Shown here: piece by piece, positions 21,100 to 32,298 of the stretch
How the letters are laid out: every line of letters begins with the position of its first letter
How positions within the stretch are numbered: position 1 is the stretch's first letter
Assembly (NCBI GenBank): GCA_028287925.1
Contig: JAQBOS010000161.1
Coordinates: 1-34,377, forward strand
From: Mucilaginibacter sp.
GTDB taxonomy: Bacteria > Bacteroidota > Bacteroidia > Sphingobacteriales > Sphingobacteriaceae
DNA: 34,377 bases
Reading direction: 5' to 3'
Notes under the pieces: model-generated
Seen by the model: the letters and a program-made list of their open reading frames with translations, nothing else
Database searches by the model: none
Told to the model about the DNA's origin: nothing
Program-made: the position numbers and the translations under genes

Positions 21100-21328
21100 T
21101 GTGCGAATTTCGGATGTGCAAATGTGCGGATGAGAAGATGATGTGCGAATTTCGGATGTGCAGATGTGCGGATGAAAAGATGATGTGCGAATTTCGGATG
21201 TGCGAATATGCGGATGAAAAGACGATGTGCAAATTTCGGATGTGCGAATGTGCAGATGAATAAATAACTCTTATCATTCGCACATCTGCATATTTGCACA
21301 TCCGCATATCGTCTTCATATCTGCACAT
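21098..21328. repeat. Four 42-bp tandem repeats plus an inverted part, right after a stop codon
   Basis: Copies begin at 21098, 21140, 21182 and 21224 (start GATGTGCGAATTTCGGATGT in the first three). From about 21275 the sequence turns into the reverse complement of the same words (CGCACATCTGCATATTTGCA). The first copy shares two bases of the regulator's TGA. There are no unique spacers, so this is not a CRISPR array. A related block lies at 28641-28714. Confidence 0.88.
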
Positions 21329-26623: not shown

Positions 26624-27994
26624 ATGTCACAAAACAAATTTTTCGCCAAAGGCGGAGATAAGGTAACTCCCGAAAATCTGGGTGAGGCTATTCAACAGGC
26701 TATTGAGATTGAAATTGCAACTATCCCTGTTTATCTTTATACTTATTATTCCATTAACCGCTCGCCGGATCAGGATGCTATAAGCGGCTCGCTTGTGCAA
26801 AAGCTGGTAGCCAAAGGTAAAACAGCCAAAGAAGCAAGCGCAATTGCCTTAGACCTATCGGCCGAGCTCATGGTGTTTTCAAACAAAGCGGGGGCTTTGA
26901 TCATGAGCGTTGCGATAGAGGAAATGCTGCACATGGCGCTGTCATCAAATCTTAAGCAGGCGCTTGCCGGGCTGCCTGAACTGGTTGGCAAATCGCCCAG
27001 CGTATGGCCTACCTGCCTGCCTGGTCACGTTCCTCCGTTTAATATTGACAGGGCCAAACTTTCACAGGAACAGCTGATGACCTTCCTGAAAATTGAAAGC
27101 CCCGATCCGCTGCATGATCCAAAACTACTCCAGGTAATTGAGTACACCACCATCGGGAAATTTTATGAAATGATTGTTGATTGTATCGATAATAACGATC
27201 TGCAATACAGAACGTTTTTACCGCAGCTGATAGAGGGTAAAGGTTATTATGCACAGAATAACATTGATACTGTTTATTACGATAAGGAACATAAACCCCA
27301 CTTTACCAACCAGGATGATAGTGGCGACCTGGTTTATATAAGAGATAAGGCATCGGCAAAAAAAGCCATAATGTGTATTGTTGAGCAGGGAGAAGGCAGC
27401 AAAGCCCCGGGTTTAAATCCTGATAACTCGGTTAATTGCAGCGCAGTAGTTCCCGGTGATTTTGACGACCTTTCAAAAAAAGAATTGTCGCACTTTGCAA
27501 AGTTTGTTGAGATCTATTGTACTTACAAAACTTTAAATGCCAGGTTCCAAAGCCTTGACATCGGGGTTAAAGATATTAACGATTATTTTGTGGTTAACGT
27601 AGCCAAAAATCCACTTACAAAGCATTATCCCGCCAACATAGCGCCAGTTTCCGAACTGCTCAACGCAGTTTACACCTATATATTTGTAATGGTTGAGGAT
27701 TGCTACCTGAAATCGGGAAATACACAGTGGGAGATCTTTATGTTTGGGATCCATAAATCTATGATCTTTATCCTAAATTCTATTTGCGGGGATATAATGA
27801 AGCTTACCTACACAGGGCCCGACGGGGAGGTTTATTCAGCTGCGCCAACATTTGAGGACTATCCGTTCGGTCTTTTATCAAGCCCAAAATCGCAAATGAT
27901 AGACCTGTTCAATGCCGCAGTAGCTGTTTATCCAACCATCAGCTACCTGGGGCAAAGGATCCAGGATCTGCCGGATGTTCCATTGCATAATTGA
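26624..27994 (+). CDS. Ferritin-like protein of the VioB (iminophenyl-pyruvate dimer synthase) type
   Basis: The 456-residue protein has the ferritin-like N-terminal domain: EAIQQAIEIEIATIPVYLYT with E28 and E30, then IEEMLHMALSSNLKQAL with an ExxH at 100-103 and a second ExxH (ELSH) at 287-290. These residues can form a two-metal centre. The family is known from the VioB and RebD part of bisindole biosynthesis, but stand-alone members have no proven reaction. It is followed after 52 bases by the Cys-rich gene, so the two are very likely cotranscribed. It is a candidate oxidase or modifying enzyme of the cluster (inference). Confidence 0.8.
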   Translation: MSQNKFFAKGGDKVTPENLGEAIQQAIEIEIATIPVYLYTYYSINRSPDQDAISGSLVQKLVAKGKTAKEASAIALDLSAELMVFSNKAGALIMSVAIEEMLHMALSSNLKQALAGLPELVGKSPSVWPTCLPGHVPPFNIDRAKLSQEQLMTFLKIESPDPLHDPKLLQVIEYTTIGKFYEMIVDCIDNNDLQYRTFLPQLIEGKGYYAQNNIDTVYYDKEHKPHFTNQDDSGDLVYIRDKASAKKAIMCIVEQGEGSKAPGLNPDNSVNCSAVVPGDFDDLSKKELSHFAKFVEIYCTYKTLNARFQSLDIGVKDINDYFVVNVAKNPLTKHYPANIAPVSELLNAVYTYIFVMVEDCYLKSGNTQWEIFMFGIHKSMIFILNSICGDIMKLTYTGPDGEVYSAAPTFEDYPFGLLSSPKSQMIDLFNAAVAVYPTISYLGQRIQDLPDVPLHN

Positions 27995-28046
27995 GGATGA
28001 ATTTTAAGCAAACCCATTTAATCATTATTAAAAAATTTAGCACATT

Positions 28047-28640
28047 ATGGCTATCATAAAATATACACCAAACCTATCCTTATGCGGCGGTTCAGCACCT
28101 GCGCCTTCTGCTGCTCCACAAACCTGTGCTCCGGCAAGCGCACCATCAATTGAATTGCATGTTTGTATGGGGTTAAACGCATGCAAAGGGCATGACCGTT
28201 ATGGAACAAACAACTGCGCAGGGACCGGTTATTGCGCCACTGCCGAACAGCACAATTGTCAAACGTTAAACAATTGCCGCGGACAAGGTGGTTGCGGGCT
28301 TTATGGCGATATAGAGCAGCAGGAAAATCCCGGTAATAATGAATGCGCATGGCAAGGCAGTTGTGCCGTACCCATCCAGGCTGAGCGCTTCAGAACCTTA
28401 GGCCCTGAAAGAGGTAAAAGCGTATGGCTCCAGGCCCGCAAGCTGTTTGTGCAAAGGATGCACAAAGCAAAAAGAAGCTATGGCGATTCACCTTTTAAAT
28501 GCGGACCTCCTCAAAACTGGCTGATCTCTGTGTTAGGATCGTATGATTCATGTGGTAACAGCGGCGATAAGGTTTGTTCGTTCGGGTTTAATGATCCTGA
28601 TGATCATGCAAAGAAACTTTGTGAAGGGGAGAAAGAATAA
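28047..28640 (+). CDS. Cys-rich protein with CX5C ladder, probable MNIO substrate (precursor)
   Basis: The 197-residue protein has 15 cysteines at 13, 27, 40, 46, 57, 63, 71, 77, 83, 100, 106, 152, 169, 177 and 192. Five CX5C intervals share the form C-x-x-x-[N/G]-x-C: CMGLNAC, CAGTGYC, CQTLNNC, CRGQGGC and CAWQGSC. Such NACKG and CRGQGG words recall bufferin-type MNIO substrates, a comparison from memory. Residues 14-35 are Ala/Pro/Ser-rich; there is no Sec signal peptide or lipobox, unlike bufferins. A basic helix (about 120-145) and a second Cys group follow. The MNIO gene starts 91 bases downstream. Modification of these cysteines is inferred from the context; direct evidence would need mass spectrometry. 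Confidence 0.75.
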   Translation: MAIIKYTPNLSLCGGSAPAPSAAPQTCAPASAPSIELHVCMGLNACKGHDRYGTNNCAGTGYCATAEQHNCQTLNNCRGQGGCGLYGDIEQQENPGNNECAWQGSCAVPIQAERFRTLGPERGKSVWLQARKLFVQRMHKAKRSYGDSPFKCGPPQNWLISVLGSYDSCGNSGDKVCSFGFNDPDDHAKKLCEGEKE

Positions 28641-28714
28641 TGTGCGGATGCGTGGATGTGCGGATGAAAGGATGATGTGCGGATTCCGGATGTGCAAATG
28701 TGCGGATGAAAGAG
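28641..28714. repeat. Second copy block of the 42-bp repeat, after the Cys-rich gene
   Basis: Begins at the first base after TAA: a partial unit (TGTGCGGATGCGTGGATGTG) then a full unit (GATGTGCGGATTCCGGATGT from 28673). It is the same family as 21098-21328 and separates the precursor and MNIO genes. Confidence 0.8.
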
Positions 28715-28731
28715 TATAAAATAAATTTTGG

Positions 28732-29676
28732 ATGATTGAACAACGGGAAAAATATAGTGATTTGATAAAAAGCTTGCCTAATCCCGGGCTTGGCCTGGGG
28801 TTAAGGAGCAAGCATTTTAACTACATCCTGGAAAATAATCCCGAAGTGGATTGGTTTGAGGTGATCTCTGAAAACTTTATGGATTCGGGTGGCAGGCCGC
28901 GTCATGTATTAAGGCAACTGGCAGAAAGATATCCGGTAGTAATGCATGGGGTATCTCTTTCTATCGGCAGTACTGATCCGTTAAATAAAGAATATCTAAC
29001 CAAATTGAAGCTGCTTGCCGAAGAGGTAAAACCGCTCTGGATCAGCGACCATTTATGCTGGACAGGGGTTAACAGCCTGAACACACACGATCTGTTACCG
29101 GTAGTTTTGAATGAAGAATCACTTAAACATATCTGTAATCGGATCAACCAGGTACAGGACTTTTTAGAGCGCCCTGTTGTTTTTGAAAATCCAAGCACTT
29201 ACTTAACCTTTAAGCAATCAACCATTCATGAATATGGCTTTTTGCGATACATGACAGAAGAAACGGGCTGCGGTTTACTGCTGGACGTAAATAATGTATA
29301 TGTATCCGGCTTTAATAATGATTTTGACCCGGTACATTATATCCATCAGTTACCTCATGACCGGATCGTACAAATGCATATAGCAGGTCACCAACATTGC
29401 GGTACACATATTATTGATACGCACGACAGACAGGTTGTAAAGGATGTTTGGAACCTTTTTAGCCTCGCCTGGCAATTGACCGGTGGGGTTGCCACCTTAT
29501 TGGAATGGGATGGCAATATTCCTGAATTTGATGTGTATCACAATGAACTGTTAAAGGCAAAGCAACACATGAGCAGTATTTTAGTGGTTGATCAGGTAAC
29601 TGAAACACAGGAACACGGTGAAGAAGCCGTATCAAATCCTGTTGATTTTTTGGTGAATGATGTTGTGGTTAATTAA
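28732..29676 (+). CDS. DUF692 multinuclear iron-dependent oxidase (MNIO), MbnB/BufB-like
   Basis: The 314-residue protein has the DUF692 TIM-barrel with its metal ligands visible: H72 (MHGVSLSIGS), D106/H107 (WISDHLCW), E152/N153 (ENPSTYL), D185/N187/N188 (LLLDVNNVYVS), H216/H220 (QMHIAGHQ), D229/H231 (IIDTHDR) and E258/D260 (LLEWDGN). Known members use two or three iron ions to convert cysteines of a peptide into oxazolone/thioamide or thiooxazole groups. Gene order (Cys-rich, MNIO, DUF2063) matches such pathways. The likely substrate is the protein encoded just upstream. Length and motifs are complete, so the enzyme looks active. Confidence 0.92.
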   Translation: MIEQREKYSDLIKSLPNPGLGLGLRSKHFNYILENNPEVDWFEVISENFMDSGGRPRHVLRQLAERYPVVMHGVSLSIGSTDPLNKEYLTKLKLLAEEVKPLWISDHLCWTGVNSLNTHDLLPVVLNEESLKHICNRINQVQDFLERPVVFENPSTYLTFKQSTIHEYGFLRYMTEETGCGLLLDVNNVYVSGFNNDFDPVHYIHQLPHDRIVQMHIAGHQHCGTHIIDTHDRQVVKDVWNLFSLAWQLTGGVATLLEWDGNIPEFDVYHNELLKAKQHMSSILVVDQVTETQEHGEEAVSNPVDFLVNDVVVN

Positions 29677-29688
29677 TTTAAACAGATA

Positions 29689-29779
29689 TGTCATTGAGCG
29701 CAGCAACCGCGAACTATACCTATCCCATTTGCCTCGCGAATATGCACAGTTCGCGATTGCTTCGTACCTCGCAATGACA
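29689..29779. repeat. Degenerate palindrome between the MNIO and DUF2063 genes
   Basis: TGTCATTG..AGCGCAGCAACCGCGAACT (29689-29715) pairs with AGTTCGCGATTGCTTCGTAC..CAATGACA (29748-29779). It belongs to the same family as 15857-15970. It leaves 26 bases before the next start. Confidence 0.75.
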
Positions 29780-29805
29780 AGCGTATAATTTGTTATCATA
29801 GTTCA

Positions 29806-30639
29806 ATGGAGTCAAACATTTTTTCCTTAAAACAATTACAAAACTGGATGCAGGGCATGCTGGTGCATCATGAGCCGTTAGAAAATGGAAATGCTGAAGT
29901 GCCAGTAATGGTTGAGCATGTTGTTAATTCATCAGAACGGTTAAGCGCTGTAAAGCACCTTGATATTTACCGGTATAGTTATATTGCCCGGCTACGGGCC
30001 TGCATGCAAAGCCAGTTTAGTGCTTTGGCTTATGCTTTGGGTAGTGAATTGTTTGAGCTATTTGCCGATCAGTACCTTGACACTTACCCATCCGAAAGCT
30101 ATACATTGAATACTCTCGGTGAAAAATTCCCGGCCTTTTTAGAGGAAACCCGGCTCGATGCCAGCCAGGAGGAAAAAGAAACCTGGCCCGATTTTATGAT
30201 AGAGCTGGCGGGTTTTGAATATGCACTATCGGTAATATTTGATGAACGGGCAAACGAAAATAATACTGTTACACCTAATAATACCCCCGACGAATTATTA
30301 AAGCCGGCGCCTGTATTGCACCTGTTTCATTATCAATACCCCATTTGTGATTATTACCTGGAGTTCAGCCAGGGAAAAGAGCCGGAATTACCATTCCCCG
30401 AAGAAAGTTATTGTGCGGTTACCCGCCATAATTATAAGCTTGGCTTATTTACCATAAGGGGTGCGCAATACTATTTTTTAAAAAGCATGCAGCAGGGCAA
30501 CACCGTTGAAAATGCTAAGAATGACCTGATTAAAACCTTCAATTTTGCCCGGATCGAACTGGATAAGATCTGGCCGGAATGGAAGAAAAGTTTTATTGAA
30601 GCTGGATTTTTTGTAGCCAAAAATGTAAAAGGGCCTTAA
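29806..30639 (+). CDS. DUF2063 protein, MNIO partner (BufC/HvfC type)
   Basis: The 277-residue protein has the DUF2063 N-terminal domain (SLKQLQNWMQGMLVHH, then HLDIYRYSYIARLRACMQSQ and FADQYLDTYPSESYTLNTLG). Its C-terminal half (HNYKLGLFTIRGAQYYFLKS) matches the part proposed to hold the substrate peptide in such partners. Proteins of this kind accompany DUF692 oxidases and are needed for full activity in the studied cases. It is the fourth gene of the operon. A 159-base spacer separates it from the tyrosinase. Confidence 0.87.
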   Translation: MESNIFSLKQLQNWMQGMLVHHEPLENGNAEVPVMVEHVVNSSERLSAVKHLDIYRYSYIARLRACMQSQFSALAYALGSELFELFADQYLDTYPSESYTLNTLGEKFPAFLEETRLDASQEEKETWPDFMIELAGFEYALSVIFDERANENNTVTPNNTPDELLKPAPVLHLFHYQYPICDYYLEFSQGKEPELPFPEESYCAVTRHNYKLGLFTIRGAQYYFLKSMQQGNTVENAKNDLIKTFNFARIELDKIWPEWKKSFIEAGFFVAKNVKGP

Positions 30640-30739
30640 AACAAGGTATATATCAGGGCCTGCGTTTAAAGATATAATTAACTCATATATTTTTGATAAT
30701 TAACATTTTATATGTTAACTTAGTTCTGTTATCTAACGA

Positions 30740-30747
30740 TAATTTTG
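30740..30747 (+). promoter_or_regulatory. Possible -7 box of a promoter for the tyrosinase gene
   Basis: TAATTTTG fits TAnnTTTG and lies 51 bases before the ATG. No good TTTG -33 box was found at the right distance, so the tyrosinase may instead be read from the operon upstream. Confidence 0.35.
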
Positions 30748-30798
30748 ATAACGGGGCAGGGCTCTTATTTAAATTTTTAAACCTAAATTATTATCACC

Positions 30799-32298
30799 AT
30801 GATCAAATCAATCAAACTCACGGGTATTGTATTAATTCTTTTTATTTGTGCTTGTCAAAACAACAGCAATAGCACTACTGCAACAAAACCTGCAGTTAGC
30901 GGCAGTACGAGGCACATCAGGAAAAGCCTTTATTCTAAAGATGTTCAACAAGATGCGGACGATCTAAAAAAGGCGCTGGCCATAATGCGCAAAATGGATT
31001 GCGATTCAACCAGCAGCTGGTATTACCAGGGGGCAATGCATTGGGTGCCTGACACCATTTTAAAAAATCCGTTTTGCTCAAGTTATACCACCGCTCCTAA
31101 AGACTTGAAAGAAGCCTGGGATAATTGCACACACACGCCATCAGGTGCAGAGCAAATCCATTTTTTGGTTTGGCACCGTCTTTATATTTATCATTTCGAA
31201 AAAATAATCAGAAAATTATCCGGCGATTCAAGTTTTAGCTTGCCTTACTGGGGTTATACCGATACCACCAATATAGCCCAGGCCCGTGTAATGCCTGTTG
31301 TATTTAGGGATACAACCGCCAGTTTATACGAAAAAGCACGGCTTGACAGCATAAATAATGGATACCCTATAAGAGGTAAAGCGGTTACTAAACTAAGCCT
31401 TACCAAACTGTTTAAAAACACAACTTATGCAGGTTTTAATAGTAATATGGATGCCGCTCCGCACGGTGCCATGCATAACTATATTGGCTATGGAAACGAC
31501 CCTACCGGTAAAGCGATGTTTAGCCCTATAAAACAAAAAATTGACGACGGCGGCGGATTAATGCAGGACGTTGCTACCGCTGCATTCGACCCTATTTTTT
31601 GGGTACATCATGCTAATATTGACAGGGTATGGCAACAATGGACAAACTCGCCAAATGGTAAAAAAGTAACGCTTGATGAGCTTAATTCAGCACCATGGGT
31701 TTATACCTTTTTTGATGAGAACGGCAAAAAGGTAGTGTATTCACATGAGGAAATTATAAAAATAATTTACAACATGGGTTATGATTATGATGATACAAAG
31801 GTTTCTGAAAAAAGCGGTTTGCCGGATGAGTCAAAGACTATTAACCTGATAGCTCAATTGCCACAGCACGTTATTTCATCGCAAAAGCCTAATGTTACCA
31901 TAACTAAAAGTGTTACTACATTTAAGGTTCAAAATAACCTTAACAAAGCATTACTGGCTGCAAAGGATACAAAAAAGCCTTTGTTTATGAAAGTTACAGT
32001 ATCATTTATTAAACCGCCTAAAGGCAGCTATGAAGTTTATCTGAATTTACCTGCTAAAGTTATACCAAGTGTTGAAGGCGATTATTTTGAAGGGTTTATG
32101 ACGTTTTTTGGAGCAGGCCATCACATGAAGGGAATGGCCAATATGCCAGGCGCGCGAATCACAAAATCTTTTACGTTTGAAATTACCGGCCGGGCGGATG
32201 CATTAACCAAACCCGAATTTAATATTGAGGTATTAAAATTTGGCGGCCTGCCACAGGAAGAAATCAAAGTGGAGAGCGTTATAATTTTCAGACAATAA
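30799..32298 (+). CDS. Tyrosinase-family copper oxidase, predicted lipoprotein
   Basis: The 499-residue protein begins with a lipoprotein signal (hydrophobic VLILFICAC, lipidated C19), so it should sit on the outside of a membrane. CuA-type histidines: H81 (GAMHWV), and H121 and H126 in EQIHFLVWHRLYIYHFE. CuB-type: H222/H226 (APHGAMHNYIG) and H270/H271 (FDPIFWVHHANIDRVWQQW). Both sites look intact. A beta-rich C-terminal domain (about 370-499) resembles that of plant polyphenol oxidases, where it shields the active site. It is expected to oxidise phenols with O2. The gene follows the MNIO operon on the same strand and ends at a strong terminator. Confidence 0.88.
   Translation: MIKSIKLTGIVLILFICACQNNSNSTTATKPAVSGSTRHIRKSLYSKDVQQDADDLKKALAIMRKMDCDSTSSWYYQGAMHWVPDTILKNPFCSSYTTAPKDLKEAWDNCTHTPSGAEQIHFLVWHRLYIYHFEKIIRKLSGDSSFSLPYWGYTDTTNIAQARVMPVVFRDTTASLYEKARLDSINNGYPIRGKAVTKLSLTKLFKNTTYAGFNSNMDAAPHGAMHNYIGYGNDPTGKAMFSPIKQKIDDGGGLMQDVATAAFDPIFWVHHANIDRVWQQWTNSPNGKKVTLDELNSAPWVYTFFDENGKKVVYSHEEIIKIIYNMGYDYDDTKVSEKSGLPDESKTINLIAQLPQHVISSQKPNVTITKSVTTFKVQNNLNKALLAAKDTKKPLFMKVTVSFIKPPKGSYEVYLNLPAKVIPSVEGDYFEGFMTFFGAGHHMKGMANMPGARITKSFTFEITGRADALTKPEFNIEVLKFGGLPQEEIKVESVIIFRQ

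Follow-up and report, generated by a model that had tools for sequence, protein, structure and literature searches.

The 34,377-nucleotide stretch of Mucilaginibacter sp. DNA analysed here (contig JAQBOS010000161.1; the whole stretch is called the window below) carries four consecutive plus-strand genes, for a ferritin-like protein (FERR), a cysteine-rich protein (CYS), a DUF692-type oxidase (MNIO) and its DUF2063 partner, and these form a conserved module whose order and strand are kept in every testable relative. In many relatives FERR and CYS are joined in one polypeptide. We propose that the module yields one intracellular metal protein built from two parts, with a copper site beside a di-metal site and a cytosolic redox role; we regard this proposal as evenly poised between right and wrong. 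A tyrosinase gene follows the module in the window and looks like a bystander that lies outside it. The genes and the cysteine core of CYS are as follows (lengths in amino acids, aa).

26624..27994, + strand: FERR, PF12902 ferritin-like protein; 456 aa; Pfam PF12902 120 bits, cut-off 22.3
28047..28640, + strand: CYS, Cys-rich protein; 197 aa, 15 Cys; no Pfam family
28164..28364, + strand: CYS core, residues 40-106; nine Cys in CX5C steps, Buf2-like HxCxGxNxC motif
28732..29676, + strand: MNIO (DUF692, MbnB_TglH_ChrH family), the maturase; 314 aa; PF05114 352 bits, cut-off 25
29806..30639, + strand: DUF2063 partner of the MNIO (PME-type 1 by Pfam match); 277 aa; PF09836 57.5 bits
30799..32298, + strand: tyrosinase; 499 aa; PF00264 108 bits, cut-off 22.6

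All five open reading frames (ORFs) that an earlier sequence-only reading had placed on the plus strand are present, four of them with Pfam families, and the PF12902, PF05114, PF09836 and PF00264 scores all exceed the curated Pfam cut-offs.

Four genes are conserved as a module

A search with the MNIO as query returned 23 loci in GTDB genomes, of which 21 were testable upstream; the contigs of the remaining two (L013 and L025) start inside the MNIO gene. The order FERR-CYS-MNIO-DUF2063 was kept on one strand in 21/21 testable loci, which range from Bacteroidota to Alteromonas and Acetobacteraceae, with DUF2063 cut off by the contig end in L008, L020 and L024. The outer flanks vary from locus to locus while the order within the module is constant. 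Outside the window's own assembly, the nearest MNIO relatives are from Mucilaginibacter, at up to 90% identity.

These loci were preselected by their MNIO, whereas a phylum sample of 395 Bacteroidota genomes was drawn independently of it. A CYS profile (A1) matched eight of the 395, seven at ≥190 bits; the eighth match, at 26 bits, was a BufA2-like ORF whose N-terminus is hydrophobic, and the 16 kb around it contained no FERR (genome G192). The FERR profile matched nine genomes, seven at ≥448 bits and two weakly (43 and 21 bits); weak extra copies are also present elsewhere in two of the seven strong-match genomes. The strong FERR and strong CYS matches fall in an identical set of 7/395 genomes, and all four genes are adjacent in each of the seven, that is, in the window and six other genomes. 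The probability of two such sets coinciding is 1/C(395,7) = 3.5e-15 if genomes are independent, which these are not, as the seven sit in 4 genera. Because the order and strand are the same in 21/21 loci, and because the strong FERR and CYS matches fall in the same seven genomes, the clustering of the first four genes is not due to chance. The sequence-only reading had proposed looking for its gene order in relatives; that search, run here, upholds the order for the first four genes, and the link it had drawn between the ferritin-like protein and the MNIO group holds in all testable loci as well as in the co-occurrence data.

A fused form of the module, described below, was detected with its own profile (A7), which matched strongly in two of the 395 phylum genomes (G363, 1119 bits; G379, 1114 bits), so that the module in either form is present in 9/395. 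It should be noted that the A1 profile misses the fused type II (G363 and G379 went unmatched), and both phylum scans made with it thus undercount this type. The second of these scans covered 398 genomes of the phylum of Alteromonas G395 and gave eight CYS matches: two strong (G395 and G495) and six weak, namely a fusion (G655), four BufA2-like ORFs with hydrophobic N-termini (L048, L049, L051 and L052) and L050. A plasmid collection gave zero tblastn matches to CYS. A conserved fifth gene was also sought; none recurs across the 28 loci whose neighbourhoods were compared, and neighbours are common only within sub-groups.

Many relatives encode FERR and CYS as one protein

The sequence-only reading made no mention of fusions, which we found in many relatives. 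Single FERR-CYS proteins of 658-754 aa, followed by MNIO and DUF2063, occur in 15/100 genomes of the genus to which the window belongs and in three from Pseudomonadota. In G495, one 742-aa ORF comprises FERR (29% identity) and CYS (45%) and is followed by MNIO (63%) and DUF2063 (39%); G655 (658 aa) and G827 (685 aa) are organised in the same way, their parts being more divergent. Pfam recognises PF12902 in the four fusions of G495, G655, G827 and L108, at 81-143 bits.

The CYS profile run on the 100 genus genomes (A6) includes the Pseudomonadota fusions. It matched 26, each in a single copy: in 11 the match is a stand-alone ORF of about 200 aa, and in the other 15 it lies within an open frame of 699-767 aa. 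Each of these 15 fusions is one ORF, 693-754 aa long, and aligns with the G827 fusion over almost its full length; downstream of all 15 lie an MNIO (56-59% identical to the window MNIO) and DUF2063, which in L121 runs off the contig. All four genes are present in each of the 11 split genomes, namely the window, G099 and nine others; most of these genomes also belong to the MNIO-derived loci (L123=L012, L124=L006, L125=L010, L126=L003, L129=L004), and the two sets of counts are not independent. In wider searches around the Pseudomonadota carriers, only G495 itself was matched in its class (1/78 genomes), and only G827 itself in its family (1/9 genomes). A FERR search in the class of G655 matched 4/190 genomes, comprising the fusions of G655 and G827, the PF12902 iron-sulfur protein of G800 (see below) and G904, where the match was weak and N-terminal only. 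The type II fusions also end in a conserved FPPST tail (12/12 aligned; L071 7788-9764, minus strand; L077 5348-7405, plus strand; L107-L121).

A tree of 36 selected MNIO sequences unites the 12 type II fusions in a single clade (100/99) and joins the G495 fusion to the split L023 (100/97); L052 yielded no MNIO for it. Only these two supported groupings are used here, the tree containing a very distant outlier (L002) and long BufB branches. Because type II is a single clade while G495 groups with a split locus, the split or fused state appears to have switched at least twice, by fusion or by fission. Repeated gene joining is classic evidence for two proteins acting as one. Since FERR and CYS are fused in so many relatives, they probably work as a single intracellular metal protein; and since the fusions precede MNIO and DUF2063, what the MNIO modifies is likely to be part (domain or subunit) of a ferritin-like metal protein in the cytosol and not a secreted metallophore.

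FERR has a ferritin fold with conserved ligand-like residues

FERR consists of a ferritin-type helical domain and a C-terminal extension. The PDB structure closest to its AlphaFold model (pLDDT 84, pTM 0.88) is 3hl1 (Z 23.1 over 260 residues, rmsd 2.9, 24% identity), which was also the sole Foldseek result at E <0.001; further ferritins and Dps proteins at Z ~9-11 are informative only as to the ferritin fold of the helical bundle. Residues E30, E100, H103, E257 and H290 are identical in 30/30 aligned sequences and E287 in 28/30 (the alignment leaves out L072, which is the same locus as L023). In the ferritin fold, Glu and His at such positions are established metal ligands. FERR thus combines a score above the PF12902 cut-off with a ferritin fold and a Glu/ExxH ligand-like set. 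NCBIfam gave no match to FERR at E up to 0.05, in a library whose content was not checked for a VioB model. A different PF12902 protein, with C-terminal Fer4_19 and CDGSH iron-sulfur domains, is encoded in G800 (L078 5557-7557, minus strand); there was no MNIO match within 15 kb around its gene.

CYS is an enlarged, signal-less relative of Buf2 bufferins

The 22 aligned CYS proteins are 186-216 aa long and share 11 invariant cysteines (22/22), nine of them in CX5C steps (40/46, 57/63, 71/77/83 and 100/106). Past this core, split CYS proteins have a conserved C-terminal region in which W127, A130-R131 and F134 are invariant in all 22. When fusions are included (30 sequences), seven cysteines remain invariant; for the two divergent type II fusions, our claims are limited to motifs legible in the sequences themselves, of the HxCxGxNxC, GGCG and NxC-5-CAVPI types. 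The HxCxGxNxC motif and the CX5C spacing are common to CYS and five BufA2-like ORFs, and CYS has more cysteines than the six of the Buf2 core. Against the BufA2 model (NF050166) CYS scores 21.4 bits, below the cut-off of 60, and weak BufA2 matches were obtained with 20/22 members (best E 2.2e-5). A PDB profile search with CYS gave a single match at E 0.6, which is not meaningful.

Export was assessed for FERR and CYS from the most hydrophobic 12-residue window within the first 45 residues, a crude measure that is not SignalP. Maxima were at most 1.22 for CYS (n=22), 1.43 for FERR and at most 1.55 for the genus fusions (n=15), compared to 1.70-2.32 for the BufA2-like ORFs (n=5); the G495 fusion reaches 1.94, at a doubtful upstream start. 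By this crude test CYS and FERR appear to lack an export signal, and in the fusions CYS is placed behind the ferritin domain. We considered whether CYS is an ordinary Buf2 bufferin and rejected this in view of the BufA2 score and the lack of a signal by hydropathy, while retaining kinship. CYS is best described as a predicted signal-less, enlarged relative of Buf2 bufferins and the likely MNIO substrate. The earlier assignment of the Cys-rich protein as the likely substrate of an MNIO-type pathway is supported.

The MNIO is of the BufB type

The window MNIO scores 353 bits against the NCBIfam family MNIO_BufB (cut-off 310), and BufB is matched by each of the 20 MNIOs (best E 3.5e-110, against 9.5e-77 for the next family). 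It aligns with 3bww at E 1.6e-54, and eight residues (H72, H107, E152, N187, H216, D229, H231 and E258) are invariant in the 20 MNIOs and identical in the 3bww alignment; these are candidate iron ligands. PF09836 (DUF2063, PME-type 1) was found in 17/17 partners of alignment A4. With profile matches to PF05114, BufB and PF09836, the two proteins form a pair as in known MNIO pathways, as had been suggested. A second, distant MNIO is present in the window's genome (L002, G000:C24:8503-9087, minus strand, in a 502-aa open frame), with 25% identity to the window MNIO (121 bits).

Neighbouring genes and intergenic repeats

At most of the 28 loci compared, informative neighbours are absent and most flanking genes lack annotation. 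In L017 and L035 a flavin amine oxidase gene lies two genes upstream of FERR and a thiamine pyrophosphate (TPP) decarboxylase gene directly upstream; in L107 both clusters are represented downstream, the member of the oxidase cluster being without a Pfam match. The best NCBIfam label for the L017 and L035 oxidases was VioA, at 82 bits versus a cut-off of 600, and for the TPP decarboxylase, tested in L017, indolepyruvate decarboxylase, at 283 versus 946 bits. The pair (L017 2407-5855, L035 2962-6594 and L107 10408-14161, all on the plus strand) hints at an amino-acid or keto-acid pathway. In 5/14 fused loci (L111, L114, L115, L117 and L120), a Dyp-peroxidase-type gene and a gene of about 220 aa without a Pfam match lie directly upstream; the peroxidase match, tested in L114, scores 64 bits and so misses the cut-off of 100.5.

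In its assembly, of 675 contigs and 6.2 Mb, the window is contig C199. Repeats of the GATGTGCGGATG type occupy 28639-28708, in the CYS-MNIO gap, and 21121-21310, about 7 kb upstream, with 10 matches in the window at ≤1 mismatch versus 0.14 expected. Another, dispersed repeat lies in the MNIO-DUF2063 gap: its 18-mer at 29761-29778 has 51 copies in the genome, often as inverted pairs, and the reversed control has 0. Promoter and terminator scans gave counts near the shuffled ranges.

Proposed function and alternatives

HvfB and HvfC have been reported to convert cysteines to copper-binding 5-thiooxazoles; each conversion removes 4 Da, and the product absorbs near 302 nm (PMC13419390). By analogy, FERR would be a ferritin-fold di-metal protein on which CYS docks or with which it is fused, and MNIO and DUF2063 would oxidise some CX5C cysteines in CYS, with 5-thiooxazoles as the most likely product. 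The oxidised cysteines could then form a soft-metal site, presumably for copper, adjoining the di-metal site of FERR. The finished FERR-CYS protein would most likely be a cytosolic redox enzyme with a protein-made cofactor, and this catalytic role is the weakest step of a scheme in which we infer the docking, the cysteine chemistry and the copper alike. A redox role is favoured because of the oxidase and decarboxylase neighbours and the redox domains on the PF12902 protein of G800, and because fungal PF12902 genes are located near lodA/lodB-like genes (PMC4417212). The more specific claim, that the MNIO builds a protein-derived cofactor (an oxidised-Cys copper site) within a cytosolic ferritin-like di-metal enzyme instead of maturing a metallophore, is a tentative one that we think somewhat more prone to fail than to hold.

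Several observations weigh against these proposals. The enzyme-like neighbours occur at just 3/28 loci. Heavy-metal RND genes of the CusA/CzcA type lie directly upstream in L107 and L108 (the latter by clustering) and are divergent in L036, and an MFS transporter gene (PF07690) adjoins DUF2063 on the opposite strand in 7/14 fused genus loci (L112, L114-L117, L119 and L120; 177-178 bits in the two tested); the RND and MFS neighbours favour a metal-handling or export-linked role. The ligand-like residue E287 is missing in two type II fusions of the 30-sequence alignment, which have an invariant Asp-His there (D363-H364, L107 numbering), and the register of the Cys region in the two divergent type II fusions differs between two alignments. 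The structure model of CYS is poor (pLDDT 40). Lastly, L023 is a long branch in the MNIO tree whose placement was flagged as unsure.

The metal-handling view would make CYS an intracellular bufferin that sequesters copper or another soft metal in the cytosol, with FERR as scaffold, Cu(I)/Fe(II) oxidiser or peroxide remover, the whole protecting against metal stress in the manner of bufferins. The BufB-type MNIOs, the Buf2-like Cys pattern and the RND genes near the module in L107, L108 and L036 are consistent with this; yet CYS falls below the BufA2 cut-off and has no signal peptide by hydropathy, efflux genes are found at 3/28 loci only, and a plain chelator needs no FERR partner, while FERR is kept in every locus seen. 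We consider it rather doubtful. We judge it unlikely that FERR is instead a second tailoring enzyme, a di-metal oxidase acting on CYS to give a doubly modified RiPP-like product, the fusions then joining enzyme and precursor, as in borosins. FERR does lie within the maturation operon at every testable locus with its ferritin ligand-like positions kept, and the MFS transporter at 7/14 fused loci could export such a product; against this, the conserved C-terminal region of CYS suits a folded partner better than a disposable precursor, and outside the MFS sub-group no further recurrent gene was found across the 28 loci, most of whose flanking genes are unannotated.

The sequence-only reading had described a five-gene copper system in which the modified Cys-rich protein supplies or protects the tyrosinase. 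Both the window and L004 do have a same-strand tyrosinase gene after the module, and one genome (L010/L125) has a distant tyrosinase (28% identity, PF00264) upstream on the opposite strand. However, it lies downstream in 1/20 MNIO-derived loci with DNA beyond DUF2063 (L004), the other 19 lacking it there, and in 2/25 testable module-bearing genus genomes, the window and L129 (the L004 genome); none of the 14 testable fused genus loci has one downstream. L003 is without it despite common flanking synteny and a 93% identical FERR. The tyrosinase also looks exported, its N-terminus being strongly hydrophobic and lipoprotein-like (MIKSIKLTGIVLILFICAC), unlike FERR and CYS, which have no such stretch. 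We therefore dropped the tyrosinase as a part of the system, missing as it is in nearly all testable relatives; the five-gene proposal is largely refuted by the conservation pattern and we consider it very improbable.

Relation to known systems

The MNIO family is large, and its characterised products are peptides, most of which bind metals. A survey of MNIO clusters raises the idea that MNIOs may also modify proteins and reports that signal-less precursors pair with PME-type 2 partners (PMC12452194). The module is a concrete, testable case for the former idea, the likely substrate accompanying a cytosolic ferritin-like metalloprotein throughout and often being one of its domains; a signal-less CYS with a DUF2063 partner departs from the latter correlation as the survey states it. 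If our proposal is true, MNIO chemistry would extend from metallophores to the making of cofactors inside proteins, with a new class of cofactor maturation, a bufferin-type domain as a permanent oxidase subunit and a function not yet described for PF12902 proteins. With its four small genes the module is self-contained, and its naturally fused form offers a single polypeptide for expression.

The words "ferritin" and "tyrosinase" do not occur in the main text of the survey, and in the DUF692 paper PMC8224329 "ferritin-like" occurs just in a reference title. None of the papers listed for MNIO or DUF692 together with ferritin, or for PF12902, describes the combination, in a search whose scope excluded supplementary tables, most subscription papers and most preprints. 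As far as this could be searched, we are dealing with an undescribed bufferin-type MNIO module devoted to a ferritin-like protein, which a supplementary table may already list; it is categorically new only if the cofactor reading is right.

The closest known relatives are the Buf2 cassettes (BufA2-BufB-BufC, often with DoxX), which likewise place a Cys protein with HxCxGxNxC and CX5C patterns upstream of a BufB-type MNIO and a DUF2063 protein. CYS differs in having no signal peptide by hydropathy, a length of 186-216 aa with an extra C-terminal region, and a score below the BufA2 cut-off; in every locus seen it is, moreover, either fused to a PF12902 protein or paired with one. No DoxX was found among ten near neighbours in the Pfam scan, which was not a search aimed at DoxX. 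Adjamnio-I precursors, as listed in Table 2 of PMC12452194, resemble CYS in being signal-less proteins of 122-293 aa with 8-21 Cys encoded before the MNIO, but have a PME-type 2 partner, whereas 17/17 partners here are DUF2063; CYS may even so be one of them. Other PF12902 proteins (3hl1/CC_0557, the G800 protein and the products of the fungal genes near lodA/lodB-like genes, PMC4417212) share family and fold with FERR, and some likewise occur with other metal or protein-derived-cofactor proteins, but the MNIO-associated Cys domain was found in none of those compared. Joining a bufferin-type domain to another functional domain has precedents in the MerC-Buf2 and Buf1-cytochrome c-FGE fusions described in PMC12452194; here, by contrast, the partner is a ferritin-like di-metal domain, predicted to be cytosolic, and the split and fused forms occur within one genus.

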